Shown here in pieces: positions 18,638 to 31,577 of a stretch of DNA of 35,499 nt. Source of the stretch: an uncultured Acidimicrobiales bacterium (GTDB lineage Bacteria > Actinomycetota > Acidimicrobiia > Acidimicrobiales > SHLQ01); contig CALLAA010000007.1 in NCBI GenBank assembly GCA_938002955.1, forward strand, positions 1 to 35,499. Reading direction: 5' to 3'. Within the stretch, counting starts at the first letter, position 1; each line of letters opens with the position of its first letter. The position numbers were made by a program, and so were the translations under genes. The notes beneath the pieces were generated by a model. The model made no database searches and was not told the DNA's origin. It worked only from the letters and a program-made list of their open reading frames with translations.

Positions 18638-19048
18638 ATGCCAGCGCATGAGACCCCACATCGAGTTCGCTTCCACGAACTCGACCCATATGACCACGTA
18701 AACCACGCCATGTACGTCACGTACTTTGAGATTGGTCGGGTCGACGCACTCGATTCGGTGAACCTCGGGCTCGATGCGCTCAAAGTCGACGGATTCCAGT
18801 TCGTAGTCACCACGCTCGAGGTCCGCTTTCGCAACGCAGCGACGGCCGGCGAAGACCTGACGATCTCGACCGGGGTGAGCAAGTTTGGTCGAGCCTCCAC
18901 GGTGTGGGCCCAAGAGATTCGGCGTGGCGAGGACCGTGTGGCGACCGCCGAAGTCACCGTCGCCGTCACCGACCGCACAGGCAAACCAATCCGCCCGCCC
19001 GCCTACATCTTCGAGGGCCTGGCCCCGCTCGCACTGGACCCGCGCTAA
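18638..19048 (+). CDS. acyl-CoA thioesterase, hotdog fold (4HBT/YbgC-like)
   Basis: A 136-residue single hotdog domain, normal length for the family. The motif ELDPYDHVNHAMYVTYFE (14-31) matches the D-x-x-G/D-HVNN-x-x-Y-x-x-Y catalytic signature, with Asp16 as the likely catalytic residue. It would hydrolyse an acyl- or aroyl-CoA thioester. The gene stands alone between divergent SRPBCC and convergent methyltransferase genes, so the substrate cannot be inferred. Confidence 0.87.
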   Translation: MPAHETPHRVRFHELDPYDHVNHAMYVTYFEIGRVDALDSVNLGLDALKVDGFQFVVTTLEVRFRNAATAGEDLTISTGVSKFGRASTVWAQEIRRGEDRVATAEVTVAVTDRTGKPIRPPAYIFEGLAPLALDPR

Positions 19049-26191: not shown

Positions 26192-26971
26192 ATGACGGCG
26201 ACGGTGATCGCCGGGCGCGGCATCGTTACGCCGCAAGGCGTGGTGCTCGATCTCGAGACCGCGGGTGTGGGTCATCGTGGGCTGGCCCGGTTGATCGACA
26301 TGTTGCTCGTCGGCGCCGGGCTGTTCGCCATCGCCGGTCTCGGTGGTTTGCTCGGGTCATCCAACGGCAGCACGCTCGCCCTCGTCCTTTCGCTGCTGCT
26401 CGGCTTTGGTTGGTTCTTTGGGTACCCCGTGGTGAGCGAGACCTTCTTTCGGGGCCGAACCATCGGCAAAATGGTCCTCGGCCTACGCGTCGTTACCCTC
26501 GAAGCTGGCCCGATCGGATTTCGCGAGGCGTTCATCCGGTCGCTCTTTCAGATCATCGACATTCTCGCGAGCTTCGGGTCGGTAGCGCTGCTCACCGGCA
26601 TGTTCACGAATCGCTCACAGCGGCTCGGCGACTTTGCCGCTGGAACCTTCGTGATCATCGACCCACGGATCGTCACGCACGTACCCGCAGTGCCGTTCAC
26701 CCCACCAATGGGTACCGAAGAGATCGTTGCGGCAATGGACGTTTCGAAGCTGCGTCCCGAACAAGAACGGCTCATTCGGTCGTTCCTCCTGCGGGTCGGA
26801 GATCTCTCTGGCGCTGCTCGAATCGACCTCGGTCACCGCCTCGCGGCTTCGACATCACAGTTTCTCGGGCACGATCAGCAATACGGTCTGCCTCCCGAGC
26901 CATACCTGGTTGCCGTGATGGCAGCGCGGCAACTCCGCGAAGGTGGTCTCGCACAGCTCGCGATCCAGTAG
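26192..26971 (+). CDS. RDD family membrane protein
   Basis: A 259-residue protein. The RDD domain (about 25-165) has the defining Arg-Asp pair in RLIDMLLVGAG, several hydrophobic helices, GRTIGKMVLGLRVV, and the late SQRLGDFAAGTFVI. A soluble C-terminal extension of about 90 residues follows. RDD proteins are of uncertain function, often linked to transport or ion homeostasis. GGAG lies 8 nt before ATG 26192. It is divergent from the SpoIIM-family gene with a 44-bp gap. Confidence 0.87.
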   Translation: MTATVIAGRGIVTPQGVVLDLETAGVGHRGLARLIDMLLVGAGLFAIAGLGGLLGSSNGSTLALVLSLLLGFGWFFGYPVVSETFFRGRTIGKMVLGLRVVTLEAGPIGFREAFIRSLFQIIDILASFGSVALLTGMFTNRSQRLGDFAAGTFVIIDPRIVTHVPAVPFTPPMGTEEIVAAMDVSKLRPEQERLIRSFLLRVGDLSGAARIDLGHRLAASTSQFLGHDQQYGLPPEPYLVAVMAARQLREGGLAQLAIQ

Positions 26972-26990
26972 GGAGCGGGCTCACTGCCCA

Positions 26991-26996
26991 TACGCT
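26991..26996 (+). promoter_or_regulatory. -10 hexamer TACGCT of a leaderless transcript
   Basis: TACGCT is followed by 6 nt and GTG 27003, and decides the start of the cysteine desulfurase gene over a longer reading from 26943. Confidence 0.55.
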
Positions 26997-27002
26997 GTAG
27001 GG

Positions 27003-28118
27003 GTGCCTACCTACCTCGATCACGCCGCATCGTCGCCGCTTCGCCCCGAAGCCCTCGACGCCATGCTTCCGTGGTTTTCTGAGCGGCACGCCAACCCGAC
27101 AGCTGCTCATCGACTCGGGCGGCGTGCTCGCCAAGCCCTCGACGATGCTCGTGCGGTCATCGCCGAAGCCACCGGTTTCGAGCGCGGCGAGGTGGTGTTC
27201 ACCGGCGGTGGCACCGAGTCGGACAACCTTGCTATTGGACGTAACCGGCCGCCGGGCTCGGTCATCGTTGGGGCAACCGAACACCCTGCGGTGCTCGAAC
27301 CAGCGGAGCGCCAAGGCGCCCACGTGGTAGGCGTCGACGCCAACGGCATCGTCGACCCAGCTGCTGTCGCCGCCCATGTCGATGGCACGACCGAGGTCGT
27401 GTCGATCATGACCGTCAACAACGAGACGGGTGTCCGCCAGCCAATCTCCTCGATCGCCGACGCCGTACACGCTGTCTCGGACTCGGTCCTGGTGCACTCC
27501 GATGCCGTGCAAGCGTTGCCATGGCTCGATCTGGCAGAAGCAACTTCGGGCGTGGACATGTTGTCGATCACCGGGCACAAGATCGGCGGTCCGCAGGGTG
27601 TTGGTGCAGTAGTCGTTCGCGACGGATCGATGCCCGATCCGCTGCTGGTCGGCGGCGGACAGGAACGAGACCGACGAGCCGGCACGCAGAACGTCGCAGG
27701 AATCGTCGGCTTTGCCGCCGCGGTCCAGGCTTCTCTCGACGACCGAACCGAGCGGCTCGCTCGCATCGATCGCCTCGCATCTCGACTGCTGACCGAGCTC
27801 ATGGCGTCGATCGACGGACTGGTCCCGACCGTCGATCGTGCGGTTCGTGTCCCCGGCATCGTGCACGTCACGATCCCGGCGGTGAAGAGCGAGCCGTTGC
27901 TGTTTCTGCTCGACGAACAAGAACTTGCGTGCTCGGCCGCGTCGTCGTGCGCAAGCGGAGCACAAGGAGCCTCGCATGTGCTCGACGCCATGGGCGTCGA
28001 TGCAGCCAACGCAGCACCCTTGCGGCTCTCACTCGGATGGTCGACGACCGAAGCCGAGATCGACGCAGCGCTCGAGATGATTCCGGCGGCCGTGTCCCGA
28101 CTGCGAGGTGTGTCATGA
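27003..28118 (+). CDS. cysteine desulfurase (NifS/IscS family)
   Basis: A 371-residue PLP enzyme that takes sulfur from cysteine and passes it on as persulfide. It has YLDHAASSP (4-12), GGGTESDN (68-75), His94, SITGHKIGGPQG with PLP-binding Lys193, RAGTQN (225-230) and the persulfide Cys316 in SSCASG. The longer in-frame reading from 26943 overlaps the RDD gene and lacks a family N terminus. The mnmA gene overlaps its end by ATGA, so the protein is most likely the sulfur donor for tRNA 2-thiolation, although it may also serve Fe-S assembly. Confidence 0.92.
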   Translation: MPTYLDHAASSPLRPEALDAMLPWFSERHANPTAAHRLGRRARQALDDARAVIAEATGFERGEVVFTGGGTESDNLAIGRNRPPGSVIVGATEHPAVLEPAERQGAHVVGVDANGIVDPAAVAAHVDGTTEVVSIMTVNNETGVRQPISSIADAVHAVSDSVLVHSDAVQALPWLDLAEATSGVDMLSITGHKIGGPQGVGAVVVRDGSMPDPLLVGGGQERDRRAGTQNVAGIVGFAAAVQASLDDRTERLARIDRLASRLLTELMASIDGLVPTVDRAVRVPGIVHVTIPAVKSEPLLFLLDEQELACSAASSCASGAQGASHVLDAMGVDAANAAPLRLSLGWSTTEAEIDAALEMIPAAVSRLRGVS

Positions 28119-29146
28119 GCGAACGTGTTCTTGTCGGCATGTCCGGCGGCGTCGATTCTTCGGTGGCTGCAGCGCTCCTCGTCGATCACGGCTTCGACGT
28201 GGTCGGGGTAACCATGAAGCTGTGGGGTGGCGAGTCGGACTCCGGATGCTGTTCGGTCTCCGACGTCGACGATGCCCGCTGGGTCGCGAATCAGCTCGAC
28301 ATCGAACATCACGTCTTCAACTTCGGCGACGAATTCCTCGAACACGTCGTCAATCCATTCGTTGACACCCATCGCACCGGCGGCACGCCCAACCCGTGCA
28401 TCGAGTGCAACCGACACATCAAGTTCGATCTCTTCTTCGAGCGTGCCGCGATGCTCGGCTTCGATCGCATCGCCACCGGCCACTACGCCCGCGTTGCGAC
28501 GCTCGAGGACGGTACGTTCCGCATGCAACGCAGCATCGACCCATTGAAGGACCAGAGTTACGTCCTGCACATGCTTGGCCAGGACGTTCTGAGCCGGGTA
28601 CTGCTGCCCATCGGCGGCTGGAACAAACCCGACCTGCGCGCTGAAGCCGAACGCCGTGGTCTGCTCACCGCATCCAAGCCGGACAGCCAAGACGTGTGTT
28701 TCATCACCAAGGACGGTGGACGAGAGAAGTTCCTCGGAGCGCGAGGCGGTCTGACCCCGGGTGTCATCCTCACCGAAGACGGCACGAAGGTCGGCGATGT
28801 CCCCGCGACCGAGCTCGTCACGATCGGCCAGCGCAAGGGCCTCAACGTGTCGGGAATGAGCGAGCCCCAGTTCGTCGTCGACGTGAATCTGCAAGAGTCG
28901 ATCGTGACGATCGGTCCGCGTCGTTCGCTTCAAGATGACGAAACCGGCTTCACGCAGCCGGTCTGGGCACACAAACCGTTTACGGGAAACGCGCTCGTGC
29001 AAGCGAGCGCACACGGCACCGCGCTGCCAGCCACCGTCGAACTCGACCGGGTTGTGTGGCACGACAAGCGAGATCGCATCGCCCCGGGCCAGAGCTTGGT
29101 GTTCTACGACAACGACTACGTCATCGGCGGCGCAATCGCCACCTGA
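28115..29146 (+). CDS. mnmA: tRNA-specific 2-thiouridylase MnmA
   Basis: A 343-residue PP-loop enzyme that thiolates U34 of tRNAs for Lys, Glu and Gln, using ATP and persulfide sulfur. The PP-loop SGGVDSS (10-16), the catalytic Cys98 in NPCIECNRHIKF, the second Cys195 in PDSQDVCFI and the KDQSYVL segment are intact, and length is normal. It overlaps the cysteine desulfurase gene by 4 bp. Thirteen bases after its stop the first REP-like core of the RAYT element begins. Confidence 0.95.
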   Translation: MSERVLVGMSGGVDSSVAAALLVDHGFDVVGVTMKLWGGESDSGCCSVSDVDDARWVANQLDIEHHVFNFGDEFLEHVVNPFVDTHRTGGTPNPCIECNRHIKFDLFFERAAMLGFDRIATGHYARVATLEDGTFRMQRSIDPLKDQSYVLHMLGQDVLSRVLLPIGGWNKPDLRAEAERRGLLTASKPDSQDVCFITKDGGREKFLGARGGLTPGVILTEDGTKVGDVPATELVTIGQRKGLNVSGMSEPQFVVDVNLQESIVTIGPRRSLQDDETGFTQPVWAHKPFTGNALVQASAHGTALPATVELDRVVWHDKRDRIAPGQSLVFYDNDYVIGGAIAT

Positions 29147-29158
29147 CTACCGCCCAAC

Positions 29159-29281
29159 GGGGCCTGTCCCCCTACCGAAGGGGGCCTGTCCCCACAGCGC
29201 CCACTATCTGTTGATATTTCAACCTTTCGATCCGACCAGACCGCGTGGGGCCTGTCCCCGTACCGAACGGGGCCTGTCCCC
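29159..29281 (+). repeat. left REP-like cluster, two doublets
   Basis: GGGGCCTGTCCCC occurs at 29159-29171, 29181-29193, 29247-29259 and 29269-29281. Within each doublet the 9-bp spacer is nearly the same (CTACCGAAG and GTACCGAAC). The 53-bp stretch between doublets contains GTTGA-TATT-TCAAC, itself a small inverted repeat. Confidence 0.92.
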
Positions 29282-29334
29282 ATCGGTCCCTCGGATAGCG
29301 CCTCGCTGGCTCGATTGGCCTGGTGCAGCTTTCG

Positions 29335-29907
29335 CTAGCCGGCGAGACCCTTATCGATGAAGTCTGAGGGGACGCTTTCTTCGGTGAATCGGCGGAATGC
29401 AGTGAGGTTGTTGTCGAAGAGTCCGAGCGTTAGGTCGGTTCGCAGCCACTCCGGTTTGGAGCGTAGGCCGAGGTATGCCCCGTAGCTCGACGATGGGAAG
29501 TAGGCGAGGTCCTTGATCGGCACATGTAGGTCTTTCGGGTTCCGATGGATGTAGCGGACAACTGTCGCAAAGTACCGGTCATCTTCAATCGGGCTGTTGC
29601 TGAACCGGTCTCGACAGAGTCGTCCGGTGTAGTCGTAGCGTCGGTTGATCTGCTGGGAGTAACACATTGCAATCCAATGCATCACCTGCGACATATTTCG
29701 GTCGGGGAATTGGCCGAGTAGGTGATAGTGGTTTCCCATCAGGCATGTTGCGTGGAATTCGACGCCGAACTTCTGGTGCGCCCGGCCGAGCAGATCGGTA
29801 AATACCGCCCGGTCATGATCATCGAGATAGATGTCGCTGTGCCGCGCACCTTGATTCGTCAGATGATGGAATTCCGCCTGCGGCTGATTTCTTGGTTTTC
29901 GTGCCAT
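29335..29907 (-). CDS. REP-associated tyrosine transposase (RAYT, IS200/Y1 type)
   Basis: A 190-residue single-domain HUH transposase. FHHLTNQG (13-20) starts the fold, the metal-binding HUH motif is NHYHLL (His60, His62), and the catalytic tyrosine is Tyr119 in VVRYIHRNP. Basic residues are scattered through the first 130 positions. Length and motifs match the RAYT group that mobilises short palindromic REP sequences rather than the usual IS200 element. No accessory gene is present. TACGTT lies 6 nt before ATG 29907. The reading frame is intact, so it may be active. Confidence 0.92.
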   Translation of the reverse strand: MARKPRNQPQAEFHHLTNQGARHSDIYLDDHDRAVFTDLLGRAHQKFGVEFHATCLMGNHYHLLGQFPDRNMSQVMHWIAMCYSQQINRRYDYTGRLCRDRFSNSPIEDDRYFATVVRYIHRNPKDLHVPIKDLAYFPSSSYGAYLGLRSKPEWLRTDLTLGLFDNNLTAFRRFTEESVPSDFIDKGLAG

Positions 29908-29913
29908 GAATCA

Positions 29914-29919
29914 AACGTA
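29914..29919 (-). promoter_or_regulatory. -10 hexamer TACGTT of a leaderless transposase transcript
   Basis: On the minus strand TACGTT is followed by 6 nt and ATG 29907, so the transposase would be made without a 5' leader. Confidence 0.5.
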
Positions 29920-30001
29920 GAGAACGGGTGTGACACCCGACTTTGGAGTGGCTTGGCGAGGCGCGAGTCGACGATGAATCGTGCATCAACCGGCGGTCTG
30001 T

Positions 30002-30124
30002 GGGGACAGGCCCCATAGGAAATGGGGACAGGCCCCACTGCGATGTTGGCGTTTAGATTGTTGAAAATGGGCGAGTTGCGTAGCGAAATGGGGACAGGCC
30101 CCATCGCGATTGGGGACAGGCCCC
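30002..30124 (-). repeat. right REP-like cluster, two doublets, inverted relative to the left
   Basis: GGGGACAGGCCCC occurs at 30002-30014, 30024-30036, 30090-30102 and 30112-30124. Nine-base spacers are ATAGGAAAT and ATCGCGATT. The 53-bp stretch between doublets, read on the minus strand, carries TTTCAAC at the same offset as the left cluster. The last core ends one base before the decarboxylase stop codon. Confidence 0.92.
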
Positions 30125-30125
30125 G

Positions 30126-31475
30126 TTAGGCCATAGCGGCGAGGATCTCGGCGATCTCGTCGGTGGTGGTGCGCGGGTTGACGAAACAGAAGCGGTAAAT
30201 CGGCTCGCCGGCGAGGCGCGACGGCGTCACGAACGCGAGCCCTTCGTTCATTGCCTTCTCGCTCCAATCCTGATATTCCGCTGGCCCCCAGCCAGTGCGG
30301 GTGAACGCTACGACCGACAGCGATGGGGGATGAGCGAGCTCGACATAGTCGAGGTCGCGGATCATGTCGGCTGCAGCATCGGCGAGATCGAGCGTTGCAT
30401 CCACCGCATCGGCGTAGGCCTTGGTTCCATAGGTTGCGAGGCTGAACCAGAACGGCAACCCACGAACACGGCGCGTCAGGTGGATTGCGTAGTCGGAGGG
30501 GTTGCGGTCGCCGTGGGCATCGAGAAACGCCAAGTACCCAGCATGTTGCGCGTGCGCGTTCACAGCCTTTTGCGGATCGCGATACAGCAGAGCACAGCAA
30601 TCGAAGGGGGCGAACAACCACTTGTGCGGATCCACGATGAACGAATCGGCGAGTTCGAGGCCATCGAACAGGTGGCGAGTGCGCTCTGTTGCGAGCCCGG
30701 CGCCGCCGTACGCGCCGTCGACATGAAGCCACACACCGCGCTCGCGGCAGACTTCGCCGATGCCGCGCAGATCGTCGATCACACCCAGGTTGGTCGTACC
30801 CGACGTCGCCGCCACCGCACAGATCCGATCACCGTATTCATCGAGGGCCGCAGCCACCGCAGCGCCGGTCATCCGTCGGTTCTCGTCGGTGTCGACCAGC
30901 ACCACATCACAATCCATAACTTCAGCTGCGGACTTGATCGAGCTGTGTGACTGCTTCGACGCAACGATGGCGAAGCGGGCGGGCCGGGCGTCGCCGAGGC
31001 GGTCGGCAGCGTCCCGGCGTGCGGCGTGAAGCGCAGAGAGGTTGCCGATCGTTCCGCCCGAAACAAAGACACCTTCGGTGCCTTCTGGCATGCCGGCGAT
31101 TGAACGAATCCACTCGAGCGCCTCGTTCTCGGCGTGGACTGCGCCCGCACCCTCAAGCCACGAACCTCCGTAGATCGACGCCGCTCCGACGACGAGGTCG
31201 AACAGAATTGCGGCTTCCGTTGGTGCTGCAGGCACGAACGAGAGGTACTTGGTGTAGTCGACCGAGAGCGATGCGGGCTCGAGCACGTCGATGAACAGAT
31301 CGAGGGCCCGCTCGCCACCGATTCCGGCTTCGGTGATCGTCTCGCCAACAAGCGATCGCAGTTCGGCTTCGGTCTTGGGGAAGTTCAGCGGAATGGGGTC
31401 GAGACGAGTACGCGCCTTTGCGTACTCGAGAACTCGTTCGGCTAACGCATCGGTGTTCTCGTCGAAGTAGTGCAC
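30126..31475 (-). CDS. PLP-dependent decarboxylase (aromatic-L-amino-acid/glutamate decarboxylase family)
   Basis: A 449-residue group II decarboxylase. His177 (SKQSHSSIKSA) stacks on PLP, Asp253 (HVDGAYGG) holds the pyridine nitrogen and Lys285 in DPHKWLF forms the Schiff base; the FVSGGTIGNLSALHAAR segment is typical. It removes CO2 from an amino acid, probably an aromatic one, to give an amine; the substrate is not certain. GTG 31475 is chosen because AAGGAG (plus-strand 31482-31487) lies 6 nt upstream. It is encoded downstream of the polyamine-type binding protein on the same strand, a hint that amine metabolism and sensing are linked here. Confidence 0.88.
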   Translation of the reverse strand: MHYFDENTDALAERVLEYAKARTRLDPIPLNFPKTEAELRSLVGETITEAGIGGERALDLFIDVLEPASLSVDYTKYLSFVPAAPTEAAILFDLVVGAASIYGGSWLEGAGAVHAENEALEWIRSIAGMPEGTEGVFVSGGTIGNLSALHAARRDAADRLGDARPARFAIVASKQSHSSIKSAAEVMDCDVVLVDTDENRRMTGAAVAAALDEYGDRICAVAATSGTTNLGVIDDLRGIGEVCRERGVWLHVDGAYGGAGLATERTRHLFDGLELADSFIVDPHKWLFAPFDCCALLYRDPQKAVNAHAQHAGYLAFLDAHGDRNPSDYAIHLTRRVRGLPFWFSLATYGTKAYADAVDATLDLADAAADMIRDLDYVELAHPPSLSVVAFTRTGWGPAEYQDWSEKAMNEGLAFVTPSRLAGEPIYRFCFVNPRTTTDEIAEILAAMA

Positions 31476-31577
31476 AACTCTCTCCTTGTCGACGCCACGT
31501 ATCGAGACCAACGGTCACGTCGCGACAGCGCCATTCTTGCTATCGGCACGGCCACCACGAACAAAAAGCTGCCGTAC

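Follow-up and report, generated by a model that had tools for sequence, protein, structure and literature searches.

The locus between mnmA and a decarboxylase gene in this uncultured Acidimicrobiales bacterium is, with a probability of roughly 0.7, a REPtron without the GTAG guide, the repeats of which form a miniature element of three parts. The system is of a known kind; unusual is its build, with quartets of cores that all point the same way, a fixed plan and a common middle.

In the proposed scenario, a resident, vertically inherited RAYT, an HUH/Y1 nuclease of the IS200-like superfamily, would stay in place beside two repeat units of its own that are inverted around it, as REPs are around RAYTs in general. 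Each unit comprises two doublets of near-palindromic cores and, between them, a linker, usually of 53 nt, the central GTTGA-N4-TCAAC palindrome of which has often decayed to a half-site. Judging from the enzyme superfamily, the RAYT would bind core hairpins on single-stranded DNA and nick beside them; such cuts could allow pieces bounded by equivalent cores to be excised or copied, and the freed units would then lodge in short gaps beside stop codons. RAYTs cut REPs in vitro; to our knowledge, movement of REPs has hardly ever been caught, and their spread is an open question in the field. The small size of the present family (52 cores and about ten units), the unit-sized differences between genomes, the empty sites and the fixed geometry allow a mobile unit to be named and tested.

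The frame of repeats and the RAYT at its center

Eight exact 13-bp cores, GGGGCCTGTCCCC, identified by pattern search in the window (the whole analysed stretch of 35,499 nucleotides), bracket the RAYT gene, four to its left and four inverted to its right, with a spacing of 22/66/22 on either side, exactly as in the original prediction (Table 1). With up to two mismatches allowed, the window contains nine matches to the core against 1.13 expected, and this number was reached in none of 100 shuffled sequences; the ninth match, at 19014, is unrelated to the frame. The frame had been described as perfectly mirrored, which holds for the cores and the distances only: the two sides have different spacers and linkers, and complementarity between the outer 48-nt arms is 79%. 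The statement that it fills the gap between two stop codons almost to the base is accurate on the right, where the frame ends 1 nt short of the decarboxylase stop (TAA, complement of 30126-30128), and less so on the left, where it starts 12 nt past the stop of mnmA (TGA, 29144-29146). The two neighbors, the names of which are borne out by profile matches, are convergent around the frame.

Table 1. Features of the mnmA-decarboxylase region (positions in the window)
Feature	Position	Strand	Support
mnmA (MnmA, tRNA 2-thiouridine synthase), left neighbor	28115..29146	+	NF001138, 347.8 bits, cut-off 284; ORF
Left outer doublet, cores 29159-29171 and 29181-29193, 9-nt spacer CTACCGAAG	29159..29193	+	
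Left 53-nt linker, GTTGA-TATT-TCAAC palindrome at 29210-29223	29194..29246	+	
Left inner doublet, cores 29247-29259 and 29269-29281, spacer GTACCGAAC	29247..29281	+	
RAYT-type Y1 transposase, 190 aa	29335..29907	-	PF01797, E 2.5e-9
Right inner doublet, cores 30002-30014 and 30024-30036	30002..30036	-	
Right 53-nt linker, palindrome reduced to half-site GTTGAAAAT (30060-30068 on +)	30037..30089	-	
Right outer doublet, cores 30090-30102 and 30112-30124	30090..30124	-	
PLP-dependent decarboxylase, right neighbor	30126..31511	-	PF00282, E 1.8e-57

In a fold of the left outer doublet alone, a hairpin with a 5x5 internal loop is formed, with a z score of only -0.65. When the 990-nt stretch is folded as one DNA strand, the left quartet pairs with the right one (z -9.8, from only 20 shuffles). 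It had been anticipated that every left core would be able to pair with any of the right cores; this is true, and such end-to-end pairing is what any inverted repeat of this kind gives. Four quartets that were folded had moderate scores (z -2.4, -2.3, -0.4 and -2.1); the fold of the quartet on contig C23 (z -0.36) is no more stable than those of shuffled sequences.

The protein encoded within the frame contains an HUH/Y1 domain in which the HUH pair (H60/H62) and the catalytic tyrosine (Y119) are invariant across 29 aligned relatives. A profile of these relatives matches the solved TnpArep structure 4er8 (E 1.7e-5); a single-sequence search of the PDB gave no match at E up to 0.1, and the score against the NCBIfam model REP_Tyr_transpos (NF047646; 51.4 bits, E 1.1e-13) falls short of the curated cut-off of 80. 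According to the accessible parts of the respective papers, TnpAREP cuts beside REP hairpins (PMC8266576), and REPtrons (PMC2817692, PMC6006769) consist of a Y1/HUH gene flanked by inverted REPs that keeps its place in relatives and evolves fast, with the REPs dispersed and matched to the RAYT. The present locus shares these features, including the inverted flanking repeats and the dispersed cognate repeats that co-occur with the gene. It differs in that a GT[AG]G guide is found at the foot of the palindrome in only 3 of 52 cores, so that the repeats do not qualify as GTAG-tagged REPs. The region of the residues that read GTAG in the E. coli enzyme (numbered as in the accessible part of PMC6006769) is, by eye, not conserved in the profile alignment; the same text (Quentin 2018) assigns atypical repeats without GT[AG]G to subclass 2.6 and class 3.

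A dispersed unit that follows its RAYT

The two-doublet layout was proposed to be a defined unit, and it indeed recurs without the gene. The genome to which the window belongs (G000; 3.93 Mb in 270 contigs) contains 52 exact cores and no match to the reversed control pattern. The cores make up ten quartets, two in the window and eight with no adjoining RAYT, on contigs C3, C23, C85, C95, C120, C132, C139 and C180 (the C95 quartet is counted with two one-mismatch cores, and the C85 quartet has a fifth core). The other cores form doublets at C48 and C60, one pair 110 bp apart at C82 and seven singles. Reading the C82 pair as a 22+66+22 array that has lost its inner cores was rejected because a genome of a close strain, G008, shows a 21-bp core loss there. 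The doublet-to-doublet step is 66 bp in eight of the ten quartets and 77 and 78 bp in the remaining two, so the cores do not occur elsewhere at random without the predicted spacing. Within doublets, the spacing is 22-23 or 34 bp, and in all ten quartets the two values agree within 1 bp (334 of 200,000 random pairings).

The linkers are related as well. Nine in-register 53-nt linkers (eight from G000 and one from G008) have a mean identity of 20.6 of 53 positions compared to 13.3 after shuffling (0 of 1000 shuffles). The two linkers of the window are identical at 20 of 53 positions, within the range of 12-26 of 53 seen against the solitary copies and in other pairs; being no closer to each other than other pairs, they appear to be two copies of a dispersed unit and not a fresh pair. 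No spacer covariation inside doublets beyond that of shuffled partners was detected, except at the base adjoining the core. Spacers within one locus can be nearly identical, as in the three-fold repeat at C85. This, together with the unit-sized differences between direct repeats described below, which slippage can also produce, would fit arrays made by direct-repeat slippage and gene conversion alone, with the RAYT now inactive on them. Such an origin is quite improbable, as it would leave unexplained the related linkers at unlinked loci, the RAYT-matched distribution and the fixed 66-bp step.

Two further candidate properties of the quartets were considered. The possibility that a quartet represents the 3' end of its own gene, which would account for the inversion, was rejected because the C139 quartet, by eye, runs opposite to its genes. 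Helical phasing is not claimed: the 22 non-main linker lengths among the matches listed gave R 0.44 at 10.5 bp (p about 0.015), with the best period at 12. Just downstream of the C95 quartet (L031), there is a stretch of about 48 bp with dozens of matches in the genus among the matches listed, which is another dispersed repeat.

Across genomes, the repeat follows this RAYT. Exact-core doublets are present in five of 59 relatives (G000, G005, G006, G008 and G010), and the same five genomes hold a RAYT 56-100% identical to that of the window, all genomes compared being MAGs and the G008 RAYT being represented by only 78 residues at a contig end. Fourteen other genomes encode only RAYTs of at most 46% identity and have no core doublets; several of these carry different repeat words beside their RAYTs. 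In a search of 395 genomes of the class, the matches listed place doublets in the window's own genome only. The four full-length RAYTs of the focal group form one clade (support 100/99). The dN/dS values are 0.13-0.24 for the RAYT against 0.03-0.06 for mnmA, with the RAYT dS of 1.2-2.5 near saturation; by this measure, the RAYT evolves faster than mnmA. The gammaproteobacterial RAYTs described in the accessible part of Nunvar 2010 (PMC2817692) likewise stay in place and evolve fast.

The frames of the carriers are less uniform. In G008, the left quartet is the same as in the window and the contig stops within the RAYT. In G005, a coreless stretch of 33 bp separates mnmA from the RAYT, and seven cores 35-36 bp apart lie on the other side, whereas G010 and G006 show other arrangements that include inverted pairs. 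Two further sets of loci (L047/L125 and L062/L124) have RAYT flanks that consist of head-to-tail arrays of 12- or 13-bp repeats and not of spaced doublets.

Empty and altered sites, and the probable mobile form

Comparison of G000 with G008 reveals differences of exactly one core or of a doublet plus linker. The difference at C23 amounts to 88 bp, exactly one doublet with its linker, and those at C132 and C82 to 23 and 21 bp, respectively; C3, C48 and C95 have fewer cores in G008. At C139, four cores are kept in G008, with one substituted, and the left quartet of the window is unchanged. C85 reaches a contig end, the alignment with G008 at C180 ends next to the element, and at C60, C120 and C141 the alignments do not cleanly cross the site. 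Sister species lack two of the solitary elements: with up to two mismatches allowed, none of four genomes (G001, G004, G006 and G010) has a core at the C3 junction, and none of four (G004, G005, G006 and G010) has one at the C48 junction. In the scenario proposed above, the quartets would be mobilised by the RAYT of the window.

Empty sites between mnmA and the decarboxylase gene, a search for which had been suggested, exist as well. The decarboxylase adjoins mnmA without a RAYT at 3 of the 16 mnmA loci examined, contig C176 (see below) aside. The junction is 24 bp long in G003 and 42 bp in G004, where it includes one degenerate core with two mismatches. In G007, it holds a quartet of another family, GGTGCCTGGCACC (L287; C51, around 136188-136304). 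The latter quartet and the degenerate core in G004 indicate that use of this gap is not confined to a single family. Contig C176, which belongs to the G008 bin, shares 97.5% identity with the window over mnmA and 92.2% over the decarboxylase stretch, and runs from the mnmA stop through CAGGCCCC to the decarboxylase, with eight bases of the outermost right core left. The break on the left coincides with the mnmA stop and involves 2 nt of shared sequence. A half core combined with a break at the stop codon is the pattern that a plain deletion would give, and loss of the RAYT is likelier than its never having been there, given the RAYT-bearing genomes that surround this contig. The G008 bin contains two differing versions of the same neighborhoods (contigs C176/C392 and C265/C340) and thus seems to mix strains.

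On the second of these contigs, C392 (L200), identity to the window increases toward the RAYT, from about 80-93% over most of 26427-28676 to 95-97% over 28677-29126 and 98-100% over 29127-29572, the latter stretch covering the fast-evolving RAYT and the non-coding quartet. Recent allele exchange by homologous recombination or a chimeric contig end would explain this pattern; homing-like spread is also conceivable.

The C176 and C392 contigs are relevant to the suggestion that the RAYT and its two quartets together constitute the transposable form, a composite transposon moving in one piece. The symmetric inverted ends, the long-range pairing in the fold, the direct joining of mnmA to the decarboxylase in C176 and the rise of identity in C392, as if a cassette had been recently shared, are compatible with such an element. 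However, the half core in C176 fits a plain deletion, and the C392 identity fits exchange or a chimeric end; the linkers of the two sides are not sister copies; and the nearest RAYT outside the five carriers among the 59 genomes is 46% identical. The gene adjoins mnmA in five of the five carriers, and three of the other four (G005, G006 and G010) have a different frame. The RAYT plus its frame is therefore probably not the mobile form, and movement of the whole as one piece is highly improbable.

The placement of the units can be interpreted in another way. In a survey of placement, the outer cores were often found 1-16 nt from a stop codon, and at C23, C60, C85, C120 and C429 of G008 they are close to the stops of both convergent genes. 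In addition, an exact copy of the central palindrome follows a tRNA-like gene ahead of a T-run, in a terminator-like arrangement (L305; C224 of G000, 600-615). Quartets that are host elements at gene ends, such as transcript ends or nucleoid or replication sites, with only an incidental link to the RAYT, would show such features. This is an unlikely explanation, considering that the distribution tracks the cognate RAYT, that the sites are not conserved, as seen at the C3 and C48 junctions, that the elements have no Rfam match at E up to 1, and that REPs are themselves known to sit at gene ends (PMC3733652, in its accessible part).

A central palindrome and the relation to other repeat systems

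A motif search of 16 linkers (those at C3 and at C452 of G008 being orthologous, and that at C69 of G010 not caught) gave a score of 70.6 against 40.1 +- 3.0 for shuffled sets (0 of 100; 150 restarts for the real set and 60 per shuffle), with the consensus TTtGTtGAttTT; GTTGA or TCAAC is present in only 8 of the 16. The full palindrome, CGTTGAN4TCAACG, which was picked after viewing the linkers and for which the G007 and C180 copies were partly the seeds, was found 20 times in 11 genomes of the same genus and not at all in 8 genomes from other genera; its reversed control was found once in either group. For 13 of the 20 sites, a core (with at most one mismatch) of GGGGCCTGTCCCC, GGGGTCAGACCCC, GGTGCCTGGCACC or GGTACCTGGTACC lies within 110 nt, and in 12 of these cores are found on both sides, the thirteenth being at a contig end. 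The corresponding counts for random positions in 43 other loci are 125 of 3000 for one side and 30 of 3000 for both. The other seven palindromes have no core nearby. The G007 repeat, GGTGCCTGGCACC, comprises at least 159 cores including variants, with doublets 26 bp apart; among its 20 listed core pairs separated by 48-78 bp, there are, by eye, nine core-free linkers of 65-67 bp and one of 56 bp. In G006, three core-free linkers measure 77 bp. These observations suggest that sister species make similar three-part units from other repeat families, following one plan for REP building. The exact core and the three other repeat words were searched for in print, and no occurrence was found.

As described in the accessible part of Bertels and Rainey 2011 (PMC3116915), REPINs are likewise two-ended miniature units of fixed length, with 71 or 110 bp between REP starts, compared to 88 or 100 bp from doublet to doublet in the window family. 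The two halves of a REPIN are inverted around a spacer, whereas the cores point the same way in all ten G000 quartets and each end is a doublet; the cores are near-palindromic, and G010 and G006 do carry inverted pairs at the RAYT. BIMEs of E. coli and other bacteria, as far as the accessible descriptions go, also are clustered REPs with linkers but alternate in REP orientation, which the quartets do not. The linkers of E. coli BIMEs can hold host-factor sites. Members of the IS200/IS605 family (ISDra2 and IS608) have an enzyme of the same superfamily; in the accessible accounts, they move with the gene and have non-inverted hairpin ends. Here, no gene-bearing element was found at several loci in the five RAYT carriers, which are MAGs with 73-90% completeness: the gene lies beside mnmA only. 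The central palindrome contains TTGAT and TCAA, words that, in the same accounts, belong to the target of ISDra2 and to the right cleavage site of IS608; this is a resemblance only.

It is conceivable, if rather doubtful, that REPs across the genus are built to a plan in which the outer doublet cores track the cognate RAYT and the central CGTTGA-N4-TCAACG does not. The latter would be a common cutting, joining or host-factor site, and the quartet, comparable to the right-end/left-end junction of an IS200-like circle, would be the true mobilisation substrate of several RAYTs. If the palindrome is common to REP families with different RAYTs, the REP unit would consist of an enzyme-specific part and a common part, a split that was not found described in the accessible parts of the REP and REPIN literature.

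Flanking of RAYTs by REPs, which the original prediction took as given, is published in the form of inverted REPs (Nunvar 2010, PMC2817692, accessible part) and extends to the wider relatives of the window RAYT. The best 80 of 516 relatives were fetched, and 67 of these loci, from several phyla, were surveyed, the two focal loci and those near contig ends being set aside. A GGGGNCA-headed 11-mer is present within 700 bp on both sides of the RAYT in 34 of the 67 loci and in 2 of 101 shifted controls. Among these 34 loci, strict inversion was seen in 32, a mixed arrangement in two and the same orientation on both sides in none. The weaker comparison, with any common 11-mer, yields 56 of 67 loci against 53 of 101 controls and warns against over-reading. 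The inverted frame is thus the rule among these RAYT loci. Reading the head of the repeat as GGGGYCWG would give the window frame the same orientation as the others. A similar layout is found in a distant host, the gammaproteobacterium Thioalkalivibrio sp. ALJT (L150), where a 38/63/38 array of GGGGTCAAACC lies upstream of the RAYT and an inverted array lies downstream.
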